Assembly (NCBI GenBank): GCA_017427065.1 | Contig: JAFRTL010000002.1 | Span: 1-64,000 of the forward strand | DNA length: 64,000 bases | DNA from: Bacteroidaceae bacterium | Lineage (GTDB): Bacteria > Bacteroidota > Bacteroidia > Bacteroidales > Bacteroidaceae | Direction: 5' to 3' | In this document: positions 5,086-10,101 of the stretch, in pieces | How the letters are laid out: the number at the start of each line of letters is the position of its first letter | How positions within the stretch are numbered: the stretch's first letter is position 1 | Translations under genes and position numbers: made by a program | Notes under the pieces: generated by a model | Told to the model about the DNA's origin: nothing | Databases searched by the model: none | The model's input: only the letters and a program-made list of their open reading frames with translations

Positions 5086-5115
5086 TTGCCGTTTCAGAAA
5101 AAAGCCTTATCTTTG
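5086..5115 (+). promoter_or_regulatory. Promoter of tRNA-Leu
   Basis: TTG (5086-5088) and TATCTTTG (5108-5115) are separated by 19 bases and lie 18 bases upstream of the mature tRNA. The minus-strand recombinase reading frame extends through this promoter to 5094. Confidence 0.8.
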
Positions 5116-6725
5116 CACCCGCATTCCTGCAATGCCCAGATGGCGGAATCGGTAGACGCGCTGGTCTCAAACACCAGTGGGGCAACCCATCCCGGTTCGA
5201 CCCCGGGTCTGGGTACTGAGTCGGAGTTTTCTTGTTGAGGCTCCGACTTTTCTTTTTCCTCCCCACGCAACTTACTTGTTTCTTGAAAGATAAGGTCAAG
5301 CACTTTGTTGTAGTTCTTGGTTCGATAATTTTCACCATCAAACTCAATCTTATCGAAAAACATCGAACCAATAAGTTTGCACTTGGTTTTTACAGGTGCA
5401 TCCGTCATAATTTTAGTTAAATTGTTGATGAGACTAACAGAAAAGTCGATTTTCTCTCTCATTCCTTTACCTTCGTTAGAAAGTAATGTTATTTGTCTAT
5501 CGAGTTCATTAATATCCTTGTCATAACGCACAGATATGCGTTTGTAAGCATCGTCTGTTATTGTTCCACTGAAATACTTGTTTTCGAGACTCTCGCGCAT
5601 CTCTTCAATCTTCTCTTTCTCTTTACGCAAAGCCTCAACATCACGTTGCTGCTCCTTTTTATGCTCACTATGCAAGTCTTGGAGTATTTCGTTGTAGAGG
5701 CATAATACTGCCTCATTTGGCTTTAGTCTGCCTACAAACTTAGCAAATCCTTTGTTAACTATGTCTGCACTTTTACGCAGATGCTTACCATCATGTGAGC
5801 AGTGGTAATATGTGTATTTGCCACCATTGCCTTTGCTTGTAGAGCCTGTTAGAGAATGACCACATATAGGACAAATAAGGTACTTCCTAAGGAATAAATC
5901 GGGGTTTATTGTCTTGCTCAGTTTAGGCGTTTTCTTGCGTTTACCGTCCAATATCTCTTGCACCTTATTGAAAGTTTCTCTATCTATAAGTGGTTCGTGT
6001 ATTCCCACGACTATCTGCTCTTTCTCGTCTTTATATGCCGGAACCTTTATGAGTCCTATATAGAAGATGTTTCTCAGCATCTCAAGGAAGGAACTCTCAG
6101 GGATTGATGGACATACTCTTCGCCTAATACTGCAAGGAGCCTCAGCACCTTTCGCTACTTCTCTGAATGCTTCACGTACTAAACTCGCTTTTGGCTCGTC
6201 TATTTCTACGTGAGTATCGTGTTTGCTTATGCGGACGTTTTTGTAGCCTCTTGGGGCTTTATTGGCGCATCTACCTTTCTTTAAGTTTCCGCGTATTCCA
6301 TCAATAGTTGCTTTTGCACGACTTATATTGTCACCTTGCGCCATTCCAATATATACGCCAAGGTTTGTCGCCCAACTTGCTGAGTTATAGTCAAGAGGTT
6401 CTTCTATGGAGTTAACCTCTACACCTAATTTCCTCAATGTACCCATATTTTCGCAAGCACTAAATAAGTCTCTTGAGTATCTGTTCCAACGCAGTACAAG
6501 CAGTTTATCAACTTGCCCTTTGTGCCCACGAATATATTTCATTATTCCTTGAATAACCGGCCGTTTCTCAAATGTCTTACCGCTTTCATCTTCTCGATGA
6601 GGCACATCTATAACATTGTAACCATTACGTTTGCAATAATTCATAAGACGTTCCTCTTGAACATCTAAACTTGTTCCCTCTGCTTGTTCATCTGAACTTA
6701 CCCTACAATAAATAATTACATTCAT
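5094..6725 (-). CDS. Large serine recombinase (integrase) with tRNA-antisense C-terminus
   Basis: A site-specific recombinase of the large serine family, 543 residues as read. The N-terminal catalytic domain begins MNVIIYCRVSSDEQ, with the nucleophile serine in RVSS at residue 10. A recombinase domain follows (GRCANKAPRGYKN), then a zinc ribbon CPICG...YYHC near residues 295-320 and a long coiled coil (about 355-450). Residues 1-505 end in SDSVP at the GGGTAC crossover. The rest, RPGVEPGWVAPLVFETSAS onward, is the antisense translation of tRNA-Leu and its promoter, so it is host-derived. The start is ATG 6725, overlapping the stop of the small upstream gene (ATGA). It is the likely integrase of this element. 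Confidence 0.93.
   Translation of the reverse strand: MNVIIYCRVSSDEQAEGTSLDVQEERLMNYCKRNGYNVIDVPHREDESGKTFEKRPVIQGIMKYIRGHKGQVDKLLVLRWNRYSRDLFSACENMGTLRKLGVEVNSIEEPLDYNSASWATNLGVYIGMAQGDNISRAKATIDGIRGNLKKGRCANKAPRGYKNVRISKHDTHVEIDEPKASLVREAFREVAKGAEAPCSIRRRVCPSIPESSFLEMLRNIFYIGLIKVPAYKDEKEQIVVGIHEPLIDRETFNKVQEILDGKRKKTPKLSKTINPDLFLRKYLICPICGHSLTGSTSKGNGGKYTYYHCSHDGKHLRKSADIVNKGFAKFVGRLKPNEAVLCLYNEILQDLHSEHKKEQQRDVEALRKEKEKIEEMRESLENKYFSGTITDDAYKRISVRYDKDINELDRQITLLSNEGKGMREKIDFSVSLINNLTKIMTDAPVKTKCKLIGSMFFDKIEFDGENYRTKNYNKVLDLIFQETSKLRGEEKEKSEPQQENSDSVPRPGVEPGWVAPLVFETSASTDSAIWALQECGCKDKAFF
5134..5215 (+). tRNA. tRNA-Leu(CAA), element insertion site
   Basis: An 82-nt class II tRNA. Acceptor stem GCCCAGA (5134-5140) pairs with TCTGGGT (5208-5214), followed by discriminator A 5215; no CCA is encoded. 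The anticodon stem CTGGT/ACCAG holds the loop CTCAAAC, anticodon CAA, reading UUG. The T-arm is CCCGG-TTCGACC-CCGGG and there is a long variable arm. The 3' end GGGTA forms part of the 6-base repeat bounding the integrated element, so the tRNA stays intact after insertion. A terminator supplied by the element follows at 5219. Confidence 0.96.
5211..5216. repeat. Left attachment repeat GGGTAC (attL core)
   Basis: GGGTAC covers the last bases of the tRNA-Leu acceptor stem, the discriminator base and one more base. The same six bases occur at 10059-10064, next to a terminator that looks like the tRNA's original one. Six bases is a typical core length for serine recombinases. The assignment rests on the arrangement at both ends, not on the repeat alone. 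Confidence 0.7.
5219..5259 (+). terminator. Element-borne terminator for tRNA-Leu
   Basis: An 8-bp stem, AGTCGGAG (5219-5226) with CTCCGACT (5241-5248), has a 14-base loop and ends in a T-rich run. It starts four bases after the tRNA. On the other strand the same bases encode part of the recombinase C-terminal region. The tRNA's probable native terminator is now at 10071. Confidence 0.75.
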
Positions 6726-6904
6726 TTGTTTCCTGTATTATTCCCCTTATTTTCATTCTCTATTTCTGCTACTGTATACAGAAATTCTCTAATCATTTTG
6801 ATTTCTTCGTCAGTGTATTTCCTTTCTCCTTTGTTTAGAATCTTTTTACATTCTAAAATTGTTAACATTATCTGTATTATATTACACTGTGTCATGGTTG
6901 ACAC
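6722..6904 (-). CDS. Small protein of unknown function upstream of the recombinase
   Basis: A 60-residue acidic, helical-looking protein (ERKYTDEEIKMIREFLYTVAEIE) translationally coupled to the recombinase: its stop TGA overlaps the recombinase ATG in ATGA. The start is either GTG 6904 or ATG 6895; both lie in a palindrome at 6889-6904. I do not recognise a family. Its position suggests a recombination directionality or accessory factor, but that is only inference from coupling. Confidence 0.65.
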   Translation of the reverse strand: MSTMTQCNIIQIMLTILECKKILNKGERKYTDEEIKMIREFLYTVAEIENENKGNNTGNK

Positions 6905-6925
6905 TTATTGAGGCCTATAATAGGC
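6889..6925. promoter_or_regulatory. Two adjacent palindromes, candidate operators of the recombinase operon
   Basis: GTGTCATGGTTGACAC (6889-6904) has 6-bp perfect arms, and GCCTATAATAGGC (6913-6925) has 6-bp perfect arms around one base. Both lie between the predicted promoter (6950-6983) and the coding region, where a bound repressor would block transcription or translation. Confidence 0.55.
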
Positions 6926-6949
6926 GTGTCGGATTAATTCCCTTCAGTG

Positions 6950-6983
6950 CAAATATACAAAAAAAATAATTAAAAATTGCAAA
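6950..6983 (-). promoter_or_regulatory. Promoter of the recombinase operon
   Basis: On the minus strand TTTG (6983-6980) and TATATTTG (6957-6950) are separated by 22 bases, slightly longer than ideal. Transcription should start near 6943, giving a leader that contains the two palindromes at 6889-6925. Confidence 0.6.
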
Positions 6984-6993
6984 AAATATTAAA

Positions 6994-7620
6994 TTATTTT
7001 AGGATAAGGCTTTGGCACTTGCGTATCGTGTTGACACTTGTACCTGTTATCTTCGCTATATTTCGTAGGCTGTAGCCCTTACGTAGCAAACGGATTTCTT
7101 CTATATACTGCTCTCTCATAACATCGTCAGGCTTCTTGTAGCCCTCTTTACGCCCAACTTTACCGCCATTGGCTCTGTAGTTCTTATAACCGCTCTCGAC
7201 ACGTTCACGGATGGTCTTACGTTCCATACGTGCCACCTCTGCCAAGATGGTGATGAGGAACTGAGACATAGGGTTAACCTCACCATTTTCGGTCAGTGTC
7301 TCGATGCCGTAGTTTTGGATGTAGAGACTAATGCCTAACCTGTTGAACTGCTCGATAACCTCCAACACTTGTAATGTGTCACGACCGAGGCGGCTGAGTT
7401 CTGTCACTGCCACCTTATTTATATGATGGGCTTGAACGTACTCCACCATGCGGCTCAGTTCCTTACGCTCACTATTCCGCTTTACTCCGCTGACCTTCTC
7501 CGAGAAAACAGCCTCAACAATCCATCCGTTACGATGAGCAAGGGCGGTAAGTTCATTCACTTGACGGTCATAGTCTTGTACGTTGGTGCTAACTCGTGCG
7601 AAGATACAAATTCTATCCAT
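6994..7620 (-). CDS. Resolvase/invertase-type serine recombinase
   Basis: A 208-residue small serine recombinase. The catalytic domain starts MDRICIFARVSTNVQDYDRQ, with the nucleophile serine at residue 11. VTELSRLGRDTLQVLE and the E-helix region (RMERKTIRERVESGYKN) are typical of the resolvase fold. A C-terminal Hin-like helix-turn-helix ends the protein (LLRKGYSLRNIAKITGTSVNTIRK). It may resolve multimers of the circular element, invert a segment or help transfer; no pair of crossover sites is obvious. It has its own promoter (7651-7681) divergent from the XRE gene. Confidence 0.93.
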   Translation of the reverse strand: MDRICIFARVSTNVQDYDRQVNELTALAHRNGWIVEAVFSEKVSGVKRNSERKELSRMVEYVQAHHINKVAVTELSRLGRDTLQVLEVIEQFNRLGISLYIQNYGIETLTENGEVNPMSQFLITILAEVARMERKTIRERVESGYKNYRANGGKVGRKEGYKKPDDVMREQYIEEIRLLRKGYSLRNIAKITGTSVNTIRKCQSLILK

Positions 7621-7650
7621 AATTGATATATACGTTAATTGTTTGTTCTA

Positions 7651-7681
7651 CAAAAATACAAAAAAGTTAAGAAACATCAAA
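7651..7681 (-). promoter_or_regulatory. Promoter of the resolvase gene
   Basis: On the minus strand TTTG (7681-7678) and TATTTTTG (7658-7651) are separated by 19 bases. It is back to back with the XRE promoter, so one regulator bound here could control both directions. Confidence 0.75.
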
Positions 7682-7717
7682 ATATAATTAACTTATTTTC
7701 TAATAATTCTGAAATTA

Positions 7718-7749
7718 TTTGTATTTTGCGGCAATTTCTATTATATTTG
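7718..7749 (+). promoter_or_regulatory. Promoter of the XRE-lipoprotein operon
   Basis: TTTG (7718-7721) and TATATTTG (7742-7749) are separated by 20 bases. Transcription should start near 7756, giving a very short leader of about 9 bases before ATG 7765. Confidence 0.78.
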
Positions 7750-7764
7750 CAGTAAAAAAATCAG

Positions 7765-8055
7765 ATGGGAAAGATGTTGGCAGATAATGTTAGACTTATA
7801 TGCAAGGAACAAGGTAAGCAACTTAAAGAATTGGCAGCAGATATGGGGATAGACCCGGCATCCTTGACGAGGGCATTGAATGGTAATGCTCGCCTTGATA
7901 CGCTTCAGAAGATTGCTGCCGCCTTGGGTGTGTCAATGAAGAGCCTATTTGAGCCATTGGATGATGTTGAGGGCTTTATCCGGATTCAAGGTGAATTATA
8001 TAAGTTTAACAGTAGAACTGAATTAGATAAATTACTAAATAATAATAAACAATGA
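7765..8055 (+). CDS. XRE-family transcriptional regulator
   Basis: A 96-residue DNA-binding protein with an N-terminal Cro/C1-type helix-turn-helix (VRLICKEQGKQLKELAADMG, IDPASLTRALNG, LDTLQKIAAALGVS) and a short C-terminal extension (GFIRIQGELYKFNSRTELDKLL) seen on many Bacteroidetes XRE proteins. It is the first gene of a two-gene unit; its stop overlaps the start of the lipoprotein gene by four bases (ATGA). It is the only obvious regulator in the element and so the best candidate to bind the palindromes in front of the recombinase operon. Confidence 0.9.
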   Translation: MGKMLADNVRLICKEQGKQLKELAADMGIDPASLTRALNGNARLDTLQKIAAALGVSMKSLFEPLDDVEGFIRIQGELYKFNSRTELDKLLNNNKQ

Positions 8056-8543
8056 AATATTATAAGTTATTTATATTCTTGATTTCAAGCACAATACTTT
8101 TTGTGGCTTGTGGTTCGCTAAAAAAGCCTGTTATACAACAAAACGAACCGCTTACATCATATAAATATTTCTATATTACTCCTACAACAGAATTGACTTC
8201 AGGTACAGGTGGAGTGTATGGAGGTCAATATGGTGTCTATGGGGGAAGTTCAACTAAAACTATCAACCCAAGTGATATCATTGCGGGAACTTTACTGAAA
8301 CAAGGTTTCATCCGATTGCCTGAGTTAGACACGCAGTTATTAAGTGAAACTCTTCTTGTAAATTATGGAGAGAGTGGTAGGCGAAGTCTTAATCTTGGTT
8401 ATTCCATCGAAGTCACAATTCAGTTCTTGGCTGCTCAAACTCATTCTGTTGTATGCATTTGTACTGCGGAAGGACAAGGTTCTACAGAGGCAGATGATAT
8501 AAGAATTGCGATTAATCGTGCTCTTTCACCTCTCTTTGAGTAG
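8052..8543 (+). CDS. Element-encoded lipoprotein, function unknown
   Basis: A 163-residue predicted lipoprotein: signal peptide MKYYKLFIFLISSTILFVAC with lipobox-like FVAC at residue 20. A glycine/tyrosine-rich stretch (GGVYGGQYGVYGGSS) around residues 54-68 precedes a compact alpha/beta-looking domain. I do not recognise the family; DUF4136-like envelope lipoproteins are a loose resemblance. It is translated by coupling from the regulator gene, so it is probably made while the element sits in the chromosome. By analogy with prophage-encoded lipoproteins it could alter the surface or exclude related elements, but nothing in the sequence proves this. Confidence 0.8.
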   Translation: MKYYKLFIFLISSTILFVACGSLKKPVIQQNEPLTSYKYFYITPTTELTSGTGGVYGGQYGVYGGSSTKTINPSDIIAGTLLKQGFIRLPELDTQLLSETLLVNYGESGRRSLNLGYSIEVTIQFLAAQTHSVVCICTAEGQGSTEADDIRIAINRALSPLFE

Positions 8544-8572
8544 CAGGATTATCTTTTATAATAAACTGACAC

Positions 8573-8621
8573 AAATGTATCAATGATTTCAATATGATTT
8601 ATTGATTTCATTGATACATTT
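8573..8621. terminator. Long dyad between convergent genes of the element
   Basis: A perfect 14-bp inverted repeat, AAATGTATCAATGA (8573-8586) with TCATTGATACATTT (8608-8621), encloses a 21-base loop and is followed by T-rich sequence. It sits between the lipoprotein and rep-like genes, which converge, so a two-way terminator is the simplest reading. Because it is close to the rep-like gene, an origin role cannot be excluded. Confidence 0.6.
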
Positions 8622-8700
8622 TTAATATGACACATTATTACATCTATACCAACAAGTTAGTGTTCCTTTAACGTTGCCGGTAAAGGGGGTTGTTATAACC

Positions 8701-9591
8701 CTACGAGCGACCGAGAATATGCTTCCAACAGGTATCTATCTCATGGCTTTGAAAATGAATAACATTCTCTAAGAAGTGAAAAAACATACCTTCAAGAGTA
8801 GCCTCATCAATGAGAATCAGAGGCGAATAGACAATACCTCTACGTTCTACGTAGTGCTTGATGTCCTCGGAATTCAGATGTACCTCTGTACGAAAAAGCC
8901 TCTTGGGATTACCATAGTGCTCTAATATATATTGTTTGTCAGAAGCGTTGCTGATTTCCGCAGCCTTATCATAAGTTTGTACTGTTATGCCCTTAGTTTT
9001 GTCTTTGATGGCATTACGCTGCTTGATGGTTACTGTCTTATACTTGTCTTGCTTGTTTAGGCTACCGCTTGTCGTATAGGTGATTTCTGCTCTATCCTCG
9101 TCTCGGTCTGTGATACGTTTGCCATTTAAGATGGTGGAAACATTCTTTTTGTGGGCATATGCCTTAACAAGTGGACTGATGGCAAACGGAGTATCAAGGC
9201 ATAAATCAAGGCTCGTCACATTGTGAAACGTCAGCCCTAATCTTTGCTCAATGTAAGTCAGAGCGTGAAAATCATCCGTATAGAGTGTTTCGTTGTTGAG
9301 GCTCATCCATACTTTTCGCAATCCGTTGGTGTGAGTGTTGCTTTGTTCGTCACCTCGTGCGAGGTTGAATTTTATGTAGCCCCATTCTATGTCTCGTTTG
9401 CCGTTCCATAGTCTAATGGCATATACGTTATCATAATAGCGTCCCTCAATGCGGTAAAGTCTGAACTCGTTCAAATCAAGACACTCGCCAAAGGCGAGGG
9501 TATTAAGTTTGTCGTAGTAGTAAGGATGCACGACTTCGTAGCAGATAGTCAGAGCATCGATTTGAATAGGTCTTTTACATACTCGTTTCAT
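8701..9591 (-). CDS. Putative replication initiation (Rep_trans-like) protein
   Basis: About 296 residues from ATG 9591 (MKRVCKRPIQIDALTICYEV); an open frame continues upstream to 9690 but overlaps the small upstream gene, and ATG 9591 overlaps that gene's end by 17 bases, suggesting coupling. Features resembling the Rep_trans/phage gpII-type rolling-circle initiators are NVTSLDLCLDTPF and TVQTYDKAAEI, the latter carrying a Tyr-Asp-Lys of the type used for nicking. I cannot confirm the family without a profile search. If right, the element can replicate as a circle after excision. Confidence 0.6.
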   Translation of the reverse strand: MKRVCKRPIQIDALTICYEVVHPYYYDKLNTLAFGECLDLNEFRLYRIEGRYYDNVYAIRLWNGKRDIEWGYIKFNLARGDEQSNTHTNGLRKVWMSLNNETLYTDDFHALTYIEQRLGLTFHNVTSLDLCLDTPFAISPLVKAYAHKKNVSTILNGKRITDRDEDRAEITYTTSGSLNKQDKYKTVTIKQRNAIKDKTKGITVQTYDKAAEISNASDKQYILEHYGNPKRLFRTEVHLNSEDIKHYVERRGIVYSPLILIDEATLEGMFFHFLENVIHFQSHEIDTCWKHILGRS

Positions 9592-9766
9592 TTTGTTGGT
9601 TATTACTCTCGTTATTATCGTTTGGGCGATATGGTATGGTTGCCCAATACTGACGCATTGCGTCACTGATTGCTTGTTTGTGGGTCTCACTATGTGAGCG
9701 ACCTCTCAATTTCTGTGAGATACGCATCTTGGTATCGTCACTTAAATCTCTAAATTGTCGTTTCAT
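9575..9766 (-). CDS. Small basic protein upstream of the rep-like gene
   Basis: A 63-residue protein, very basic at its N-terminus (MKRQFRDLSDDTKMRISQKL, then RGRSHSETHKQAISDAMRQY). The pattern of short helices with GRSHSETHKQAIS resembles NUMOD3-type DNA-binding segments, an impression from motif memory. It precedes and overlaps the rep-like gene by 17 bases, so the two are probably co-translated. It may bind DNA at the origin or regulate rep. Confidence 0.62.
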   Translation of the reverse strand: MKRQFRDLSDDTKMRISQKLRGRSHSETHKQAISDAMRQYWATIPYRPNDNNESNNQQNETSM

Positions 9767-9953
9767 ATTATTTAATTTTAATATAAATAGTAGTAAAGTA
9801 AAAAAAGTTAGAATAGTAAGGTAATATATTTCTTGAAAACTTCCGGAATTATAGGAAGAACAGTTTTATACCTACTAAATAGTAATTTTAATTAAGCAAT
9901 AAGGGATACAACCCCCCCCTGTTAGAAATGGTATTCCACCCTCCTTATGGTGG
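9767..9953. other. AT-rich non-coding region of the element
   Basis: No convincing gene. It holds an imperfect dyad CTTCC-N9-GGAAG near 9839-9857 and a run of eight C at 9912-9919. AACCCCCCCC preceded by GGGATAC (about 9903-9919) resembles, on the other strand, the GGGGGTTGT..CCC sequence at 8686-8702 that ends the rep module. This may be the upstream regulatory or origin region of the rep genes. Confidence 0.45.
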
Positions 9954-10058
9954 TTATGTGTGTACCATCGGTGGCATTGTTGGGTCAGGAATGTCTTTGC
10001 GCAACTCCCAAATCAAATCAAGGTCGCGCAAAAAATGGTTCGAGAATAGAACGGTTAA
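9954..10058 (-). other. Displaced original 3' end of the recombinase gene
   Basis: Read on the minus strand from the right GGGTAC copy, this segment continues the recombinase frame exactly: residues 1-505 end in SDSVP, and GTACCC is followed here by LTVLFSNHFLRDLDLIWELR and a further 14 residues, with stop TAA at 9954-9956. Joining the two GGGTAC sites, as in a circular element, gives a 539-residue recombinase with a protein-like C-terminus instead of one copied from the tRNA. In the integrated state these codons have no upstream gene on their own. Confidence 0.65.
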
Positions 10059-10064
10059 GGGTAC
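10059..10064. repeat. Right attachment repeat GGGTAC (attR core)
   Basis: Second copy of the six bases at the tRNA-Leu 3' end. To its right lies GATAAAA and then a strong terminator, consistent with the original downstream sequence of the tRNA gene. Confidence 0.68.
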
Positions 10065-10070
10065 GATAAA

Positions 10071-10101
10071 ACGGAGAGTTTTGCTCTCCGTTTTTCTTTT
10101 T
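10071..10101. terminator. Terminator, probably the native one of tRNA-Leu
   Basis: ACGGAGAG (10071-10078) pairs with CTCTCCGT (10084-10091) around TTTTG, preceded by AAAA and followed by a T run, so it can work in both directions. It ends transcription of DUF1294 from the right and, before the insertion, would have ended tRNA-Leu. Confidence 0.85.

Follow-up and report, generated by a model that had tools for sequence, protein, structure and literature searches.

Integration of tRNA-targeting large serine recombinases and the predicted loss of a conserved, attP-encoded C-terminal tail

A recombinase gene that runs into a tRNA gene

What becomes of a recombinase when the attachment site on which it acts lies within its own gene? 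The question is raised by a 4.85-kb element integrated at the 3' end of a tRNA-Leu(CAA) gene in the window, the 64,000-nucleotide stretch of Bacteroidaceae DNA analysed here (Table 1). The element encodes one large serine recombinase (LSR) in which the Resolvase N-terminal, Recombinase and zinc beta ribbon domains (PF00239, PF07508 and PF13408) all score above cut-off, while its best NCBIfam match, CcrB (E 9e-25), reaches 87.3 bits against a cut-off of 900, below what is required of a curated CcrB.

The first-pass annotation had placed both GGGTAC copies in a single frame of this gene and read the integrated C-terminus as the antisense of the tRNA and its upstream region; both statements are borne out to the nucleotide. 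Residues 504-505 (VP) correspond to the core, residues 504-531 are antisense to tRNA-Leu(CAA), and those after 531 are antisense to the DNA upstream of it, including TATCTTTG, which we take to be a -7-like element of the Bacteroidota promoter type. Joining the two cores restores, as had been proposed, 539 residues, i.e. 505 followed by an in-frame tail of 34 codons starting LTVLFSNHFL. The circular and integrated states are thereby predicted to encode different C-termini, the predicted circle-form tail being a conserved protein end (see below). The explanation we favour, which joins steps read directly from the DNA with inferred ones, and which we consider probable, is that attP is embedded in the 3'-terminal part of the LSR gene and that integration removes this conserved tail, altering the enzyme.

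Table 1 Position of the element's features in the window
Feature	Position	Strand	Basis
TATCTTTG, upstream of tRNA-Leu(CAA), antisense to LSR codons	5108..5115	+	sequence
tRNA-Leu(CAA), integration target; 3' end = attB/attL	5134..5216	+	ARAGORN
LSR, integrated form, 543 aa, stop 5094-5096	5094..6725	-	ORF + domain search
T-loop motif TCGAACC, attB-type half-site, 10 bp off core	5194..5200	-	sequence
Core GGGTAC/GTACCC at attL	5211..5216	.	sequence
Terminator-like hairpin + T-rich run, 3' of tRNA, opposite LSR 3' codons	5218..5259	+	RNAfold energy alone, -17.2 kcal/mol
60-aa ORF upstream of LSR; similar ORF in 6/12 related elements	6722..6904	-	ORF list
Small serine recombinase (resolvase type), 208 aa; detected in 9/12 related elements	6994..7620	-	domain search
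HTH repressor-like protein	7765..8055	+	domain search
163-aa protein, lipoprotein-like by eye, no family match	8052..8543	+	ORF + family search
329-aa protein of unknown family; detected in 5/12 related elements	8701..9690	-	family search
63-aa ORF, weak NUMOD3 similarity; near attR in 11/12 related elements	9575..9766	-	domain search
attP-encoded C-terminal tail, 34 codons (9957-10058) LTVLFSNHFLRDLDLIWELRKDIPDPTMPPMVHT + stop 9954-9956	9954..10058	-	sequence comparison
Motif TCGAACC, attP-type half-site, 15 bp off core	10037..10043	-	sequence
Core GGGTAC/GTACCC at attR	10059..10064	.	sequence
Probable displaced native tRNA terminator: ACGGAGAG ttttg CTCTCCGT + T-run	10065..10096	+	by eye; cf. 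L062 empty site

On the tRNA strand, a terminator-like hairpin of -12 kcal/mol or lower lies within the LSR codons in 16 of 18 elements; opposite the linker codons, it would replace the tRNA's own terminator. This recurrence, together with a window LSR ORF that spans the whole tRNA gene and the -7-like element, would also fit an account in which convergent transcription, and not the tail, is what matters: once integrated, the LSR gene would have the tRNA promoter opposing its 3' end, with the terminator shielding the two genes from one another. Such a transcriptional switch leaves the conservation of the tail as protein unexplained, and we regard it as improbable in place of tail loss, although the two effects can coexist.

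Recurrence in the family and spacing of the att sites

In a first set of loci, all 18 LSRs adjacent to a tRNA have an ORF that crosses the tRNA 3' end (the window included; L086 and L087 are near-identical). This set comprised 27 loci, nine of which (L074, L077, L078, L006, L083, L017, L022, L026 and L023) gave no match or lacked an antisense tRNA where the ORF ends; loci holding C-terminal remnants only, such as L011, L016, L019, L021, L025 and L028, were left out of it. A listing across the phylum gave 69 matches, and among the 40 analysed of the 68 outside the window, 32 LSR ORFs read into a tRNA (30 by script, G292 and G526b by coordinates). Four others (G507, G250, G449 and G519) have GxEP-like residues at or before the LSR end with no usable tRNA call, three (G588, G209 and G323b) have no tRNA and a normal stop, and G230c, also among the 10 stretches uncounted by the script, is tail-bearing. 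The codon phase over the core is the same in 15/17 first-set elements (the count leaves out the 18th, G038, which begins at the edge of its contig) and in 27/30 phylum elements. An IMG/VR relative, L224, likewise reads into a tRNA-Leu-like sequence uncalled by ARAGORN. At the level of sequence, the antisense-tRNA arrangement recurs family-wide, and the annotated C-terminus of such integrated LSR genes is partly host tRNA sequence.

Away from the tRNA the antisense C-terminus is not kept, in line with the first-pass reading: LSR relatives in G030, G168, G009 and G135 carry other codons. Two of these endings were considered as native tails and rejected, GTNHRNHRK... (G168, G009 and a remnant in G057) because it follows 13-14 bp of tRNA identity, and AFEIIKV.../AFEITKS... 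(G030 and G135) because the G030 copy does so too, the G135 tail being judged by its resemblance to that of G030. The ends in G168, G009, G057 and G030 resemble junctions that other elements have made at the same tRNA.

The 6-bp repeat by itself is no better than chance, and the core becomes credible through a spacing rule and through the conservation of the tail as protein. The rule (core, 15 nt, TCGAACC) was framed after viewing the window, G035, G057 and G129, so that these four are not independent. It located the tail-bearing attP half-site in 11/17 elements. In a scan of spacings from 5 to 25, 12/17 elements scored at 15 compared with 0-3/17 at each of the 20 others; the twelfth, G130, scored at a site elsewhere in the upstream DNA and unrelated to its tail, making 11 the true count. 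The G130 tail site was one mismatch worse in the scan and was found by tail similarity; counting this element, 6/17 have no rule-found tail-bearing attR. The same scan was not enriched in the phylum elements (4/30 at 15 vs 0-5/30 at 12 other spacings), 24/30 of which have no rule-found tail-bearing attR within the DNA searched (to ~38 kb in 18, 2-18 kb in the others).

TCGAACC stands off the core by 10 bp in attB but by 15 bp in attP, matching the 5-bp shift of LSRs: in the A118 (LI) serine integrase, the zinc-ribbon motif of attB is closer to the centre by 5 bp than that of attP (Rutherford 2013, PMC3783163), and the sections of that paper drawn on here do not describe a gene overlapping an att site. 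We infer that TCGAACC is bound by the LSR zinc ribbon.

An exact empty site was sought by DUF1294 synteny at 17 loci, the window's included, and a tRNA was present in L062 only. Its DUF1294 gene is in another orientation, and it shows the tRNA end followed by the native terminator; it is not the window's own empty site. That the repeat is fortuitous, or the bounds of the element misplaced, is scarcely credible: short as GGGTAC is, the spacing scan, the other conserved P arms, and the displaced terminator with its empty counterpart in another genome all stand against it.

Conservation of the tail as a protein end

In its tail-bearing (attP) form the gene consists of body, linker, core (VP) and a conserved tail of ~20-40 residues of the type [LF]-S-N-x-F-x-x-D-L. 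For the five tails found by the DNA rule, pN/pS is 0.30 overall and 0.23 outside the att half-site, with an excess of third-position changes (P=0.00045 and 0.00005 in shuffle tests that ignore sequence relatedness). The LSR frame stays open over 25 codons in 17/17 tails (five of them found by tail similarity), compared with 1/17 in each of the other forward frames; the reverse frames are open over this length in 1, 9 and 8 of 17. At attR the frame is open 1-23 codons upstream of the tail in 13/14 tails tested; in the window it is open for 108 codons, so that formally the tail might be the last part of a 115-aa ATG ORF. Subgroups have tails unlike in length and sequence, and those of group B give a pN/pS of 0.62 from three sequences. 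Run on 395 phylum genomes, a tail profile (A2) gave weak matches (E 3e-5 to 0.01) in six genomes other than that of the window. For the orphan tails of G265 and G588, the 20 kb of surrounding DNA shows no LSR match. Judged from these comparisons, the tail is conserved as protein.

The first nine tail codons overlap the attP half-site with its TCGAACC, as would be expected were the P arm conserved as a DNA element (an attP arm or accessory site) and its open frame incidental. Codons 10-25, outside the half-site, are nonetheless constrained (pN/pS 0.22-0.23, plus the third-position excess) and each of the two remaining forward frames is closed in 16/17. Conservation through DNA binding alone was rejected on this ground, and the DNA-element reading is largely refuted and very improbable.

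It may also be that attP lies at the LSR 3' end through mere compactness of the module, the tail being real in the circle and its loss harmless since the known domains lie well before it. Pfam matches in the LSR stop by residue 312, near-invariant alignment columns reach no further than N473, and integrated C-termini vary freely in length; in the part of McMurdie 2011 used here (PMC3146451), variable C-terminal translation is itself named as a trivial explanation for DsiB. A dispensable tail should, however, decay, and this one is conserved as protein, with the frame kept through the core; we therefore consider harmless overlap unlikely, if less so than the transcriptional account.

Known systems and a possible switch

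Overlap of a recombinase gene with its att site has precedents in DsiB and in Mx8. The accessible sections on DsiB (PMC3146451) describe a CcrB-like serine recombinase of ~540 residues from Dehalococcoides ssrA islands, whose 3' end always lies over attL with the stop outside the island; the authors proposed that it works fully only in a circle or beside another island. The window LSR is similarly CcrB-like (its match being below cut-off) with a 3' end overlapping attL, and DsiB islands likewise have a companion small serine recombinase and occur in tandem. The DsiB target, in the same sections, is tmRNA, entered at mid T-loop with a 20-bp repeat, whereas the targets here are tRNA genes, not ssrA, with a short core; no conserved attP-encoded tail is reported there, that part being called divergent, in contrast to the conserved tail and 5-bp rule found here. 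RecF-, ParB- and Mom-like Pfam matches of the six-gene ssrA-island module were absent from the window element's scanned ORFs, and the small serine recombinase alone of the module's partners has a counterpart.

The int gene of Mx8 is reportedly the subject of Tojo 1996 and Magrini 1999. As far as the consulted text goes (PMC6070905), this Myxococcus phage carries attP inside int, and integration gives a new 3' end and a changed yet active integrase; the likeness lies in an att site within the gene and a C-terminus swapped on integration. Mx8 differs in being a phage, and its enzyme is called an integrase in Islander, a word reserved there, in the portion seen, for tyrosine recombinases. The archaeal suicidal integrases of SSV1, pTN3 and pT26-2 also have att inside a gene altered by integration, and the complete enzyme has been likened to a directionality factor (PMC8371274, in part); these are tyrosine recombinases split in two, whereas the window enzyme is a bacterial serine recombinase that would lose its tail only. 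As far as the literature searched shows, there is evidence here for something new, namely a conserved attP-encoded tail predicted to be lost on integration in tRNA-targeting LSRs.

Since the insertion site lies within the LSR's own gene, insertion would cut off the conserved end and put backwards tRNA sequence in its place: as read from the sequence, recombination with the 3' part of the tRNA gene leaves the tail at the element's far end and brings antisense-tRNA codons onto the LSR. The zinc ribbon would read the T-loop, and the family could in this way use many tRNA genes. If the attP x attB reaction depends on the tail, or is steered by it, the integrated, tail-less enzyme would be altered in activity or direction and integration would be self-limiting; full function would be restored by tail-bearing LSR from a circle, or by a tandem copy lending its P arm. 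Tail loss on insertion may thus act as a built-in switch. More tentatively, as a serious possibility that we hesitate to favour, Bacteroidota-wide tRNA-targeting serine integrases could amputate their conserved C-terminus by recombination as a directionality switch without a separate factor, passing from integration-competent to quiet or excision-biased, with a tandem newcomer re-arming the resident.

What makes a serine integrase integrate or excise is a question for elements with no known directionality factor; for serine-integrase mobilizable elements none had been identified or proposed according to the relevant part of a 2017 review (PMC5704250). One enzyme occurring naturally with and without its tail makes the question directly testable. 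According to Islander (2014), no integrases other than the tyrosine type were known to target tRNA/tmRNA genes; the present data point to a family of serine integrases making use of the T-loop common to tRNAs, with many tRNA genes serving as attB.

The uninterrupted gene was expected in circular relatives. IMG/VR, viral-contig, phage and plasmid searches gave no circular close relative among the matches listed, beyond which plasmid records at 60-90% identity were counted (one in one search, two in another). Chromosomal junctions of the predicted tail-bearing form are present as remnants in G057, G173 and G129. An uninterrupted gene of this kind is found on a chromosome: in G230, a single-contig genome, the two states occur in tandem, one copy having an intact LSR with its tail (L190:449-2044, minus strand) and the next, beside the tRNA, having an LSR that reads into tRNA-Arg.

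The window element and its recombinase gene

The 4.85-kb element at tRNA-Leu(CAA) encodes a 543-aa large serine recombinase (LSR), whose nearest named relative found (71% identity) comes from a yak-rumen Prevotella MAG. Residues 504-505 of the protein correspond to the core GTACCC, through which the frame runs unbroken; the codons up to residue 531 are the antisense of the tRNA, and the later ones, ending in TGA, come from the region upstream of it. On the element side of the second core (attR), the frame of the LSR continues for 34 codons to a TAA. These codons, referred to hereafter as the tail, are cut off from the LSR gene in the integrated state. The first-pass annotation had proposed that joining the two cores restores a differently ended recombinase, and its coordinates and residue counts for LSR, cores and tail proved correct on the sequence.

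Features of the window element and of a tandem arrangement in a second genome
Feature	Position	Strand	Remarks
LSR ORF	5094-6725	-	Resolvase, Recombinase and zinc-ribbon domains
LSR stop codon (TGA)	5094-5096		
tRNA-Leu(CAA)	5134-5216		
Small serine recombinase	6994-7620		
329-aa protein	8701-9690		
63-aa ORF	9575-9766		Weak NUMOD3 similarity
Tail stop codon (TAA)	9954		
Second core (GTACCC)	10059-10064		Other end of element
Native tRNA terminator (apparent, by eye)	10065-10096		Apparently displaced to attR
Tandem elements at tRNA-Arg(CCG)	G230:C1, about 2.90-2.98 Mb		Loci L190, L201, L204, L205

The element further encodes an HTH protein and uncharacterised ORFs, and none of its ORFs scanned matched resistance families. 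The small serine recombinase was detected in 9 of 12 related elements, at 55-88% identity against 23-72% for the LSR, which suggests module exchange or a faster divergence of the LSR. The 63-aa ORF was detected beside attR in 11 of the 12 (not in genome G045). Counterparts of the 329-aa protein, 42-78% identical, occur in 5/12; it matched nothing in Pfam, NCBIfam or PHROGs at the thresholds applied, and nothing significantly in the PDB.

Recombinase genes that run into tRNA genes

Running into an antisense tRNA recurs across the LSR family. Antisense tRNA was found at the end of the ORF in 18 of 27 first-set loci with LSR relatives (window counted, C-terminal remnants excluded), and in 18/18 of these the ORF passes the tRNA 3' end and stops 9-164 nt past it. 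The targets are tRNA-Leu (CAA, TAG, TAA), Arg (CCT, TCT), Val, Asn, Lys, Met and Pro, the two Pro-targeting copies being near-identical. In a wider sample of the phylum, 48 of 395 genomes, the window's own counted, gave an LSR match at E<=1e-60; 40 stretches were fetched out of 68 matches, and the LSR crosses a tRNA in 32 (30 scored by script, two by coordinates), adding Ser and Glu as well as further Arg, Leu, Lys and Pro targets. A single codon phase is kept over the core in 15/17 first-set and 27/30 phylum elements. Three more distant LSRs (L224; L225, MT836653; L226, MT837677) all enter antisense tRNA or a sequence resembling tRNA; the frame differs in two of them, and the arrangement may thus be wider than this family.

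A hairpin of <=-12 kcal/mol with a T-rich run behind it directly follows the tRNA in 16/18 elements (a count made with no shuffle control), on the tRNA strand and opposite the LSR codons that precede the core; the hairpins of G035 and G095 are weak. The tRNA's native terminator seems, by eye, to have been moved to attR. At an empty site in genome G147, tRNA-Leu ends in GGGTAC and such a terminator follows immediately.

The motif TCGAACC, antisense of the T-loop, is 10 bp away from the attB core and 15 bp away from the attP core. Passages in Rutherford et al. (2013, PMC3783163) place the zinc-ribbon motif 5 bp nearer the centre in attB than in attP. This agreement favours GTACCC as the core and may explain why many tRNAs can serve, as the LSR would read their common part; the zinc ribbon would then bind TCGAACC. 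Five phylum elements at tRNA-Arg(ACG) have TCAAACC instead.

A detached tail conserved as protein

The rule core + 15 nt + TCGAACC was first seen in the window, G035, G057 and G129; it was next run on 17 elements with no use of protein information. Twelve of the 17 scored at spacing 15, against 0-3/17 at each of the 20 alternative spacings between 5 and 25; G130 scored via an unrelated site, so that the true count is 11/17, and its tail was located by similarity instead. The other misses had <3.3 kb of upstream sequence (three elements), 8 kb (one) or 28 kb (one). Among the 11 rule-found elements, the open stretch in the LSR frame is 27-40 codons long, core included. Two tail subgroups align clearly, with the consensus VPLTVLFSNQFLHDLDLIWELRExIP in subgroup 1 and VPLTDEILNLWNxFxxIVxYLQxTPQILKLIxSL, 34 codons in 3/3 members, in subgroup 2. 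A plain spacing scan of the phylum set gave no enrichment. There, a filter that used the tail motif, and is therefore not independent, picked out an attR with such a tail in 6/30 elements, and G449 was added by eye; coverage reached about 38 kb in 18 of the 30 elements and 2-18 kb in the others. Orphan attP-type tails occur at L127 (G588) and L129 (G265), with no LSR match within the 20 kb fetched.

The five rule-found tails of subgroup 1 give a pN/pS of 0.30 for codons 3-25 and of 0.23 for codons 10-25, outside the attP half-site, and third-position changes exceed column shuffles, which ignore relatedness (P=0.00045 and 0.00005). Adding four tails, three of them similarity-found, gives 0.27 and 0.22; subgroup 2 gives 0.62 from three sequences only. 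Over 25 codons, the LSR frame stays open in 17/17 tails, and the two remaining forward frames in 1/17 each. At attR, the frame leading into the tail is open for 1-23 codons in 13 of the 14 cases tested; in the window this open stretch is 108 codons long and overlaps, in a different frame, the adjacent DUF1294 gene. The tail thus generally belongs to no protein when the element is integrated, yet it is conserved as protein, which is most simply explained by its translation, fused to the LSR, in another state.

Tail-bearing forms and a possible role

The fused state occurs in chromosomes. In the single-contig genome G230, a 532-aa LSR continues through GTAGCC + 15 nt + TCGAACC and ends in a tail (...NSNLLLEDLLDL...), and the next LSR, about 53 kb further, enters tRNA-Arg(CCG). 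This is apparently a tandem pair, in which the older resident LSR has been lent an intact native-type tail by the P arm (the attP-derived side) of the newcomer, whose own LSR is the one entering the tRNA. Remnant junctions of the same tail-bearing form are present in G057, G173 and G129. In G030, G168, G009 and G135 (L006, L074, L040/L041 and L077), other elements appear to share the tRNA-Leu target, through a 13-14 bp core, and to place their own codons on a resident LSR, giving unrelated fusion tails.

We conclude from these sequence comparisons that attP lies inside the LSR gene and that a conserved tail is replaced on integration. The tail would matter for integration or for the direction of recombination. 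The integrase of phage Mx8 is described, in passages of PMC6070905, as altered and not inactivated by its swapped end; a similar alteration would fit as one of the modes compatible with the data.

The general idea is not new. Passages in McMurdie et al. (2011, PMC3146451) describe DsiB as a CcrB-like serine recombinase that is accompanied by a small recombinase and always overlaps attL at ssrA, and propose that its full function may be confined to the circle or to a position next to another island. The relevant passage of Islander (2014) gives tRNA/tmRNA genes as known targets of tyrosine integrases only, and among the openly licensed papers listed in the literature searches no other title or abstract opening describes a serine integrase whose conserved tail is lost when it integrates. 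The C-terminal part of DsiB is called divergent, with no conserved tail reported in those passages, whereas the tail of the window family is conserved.
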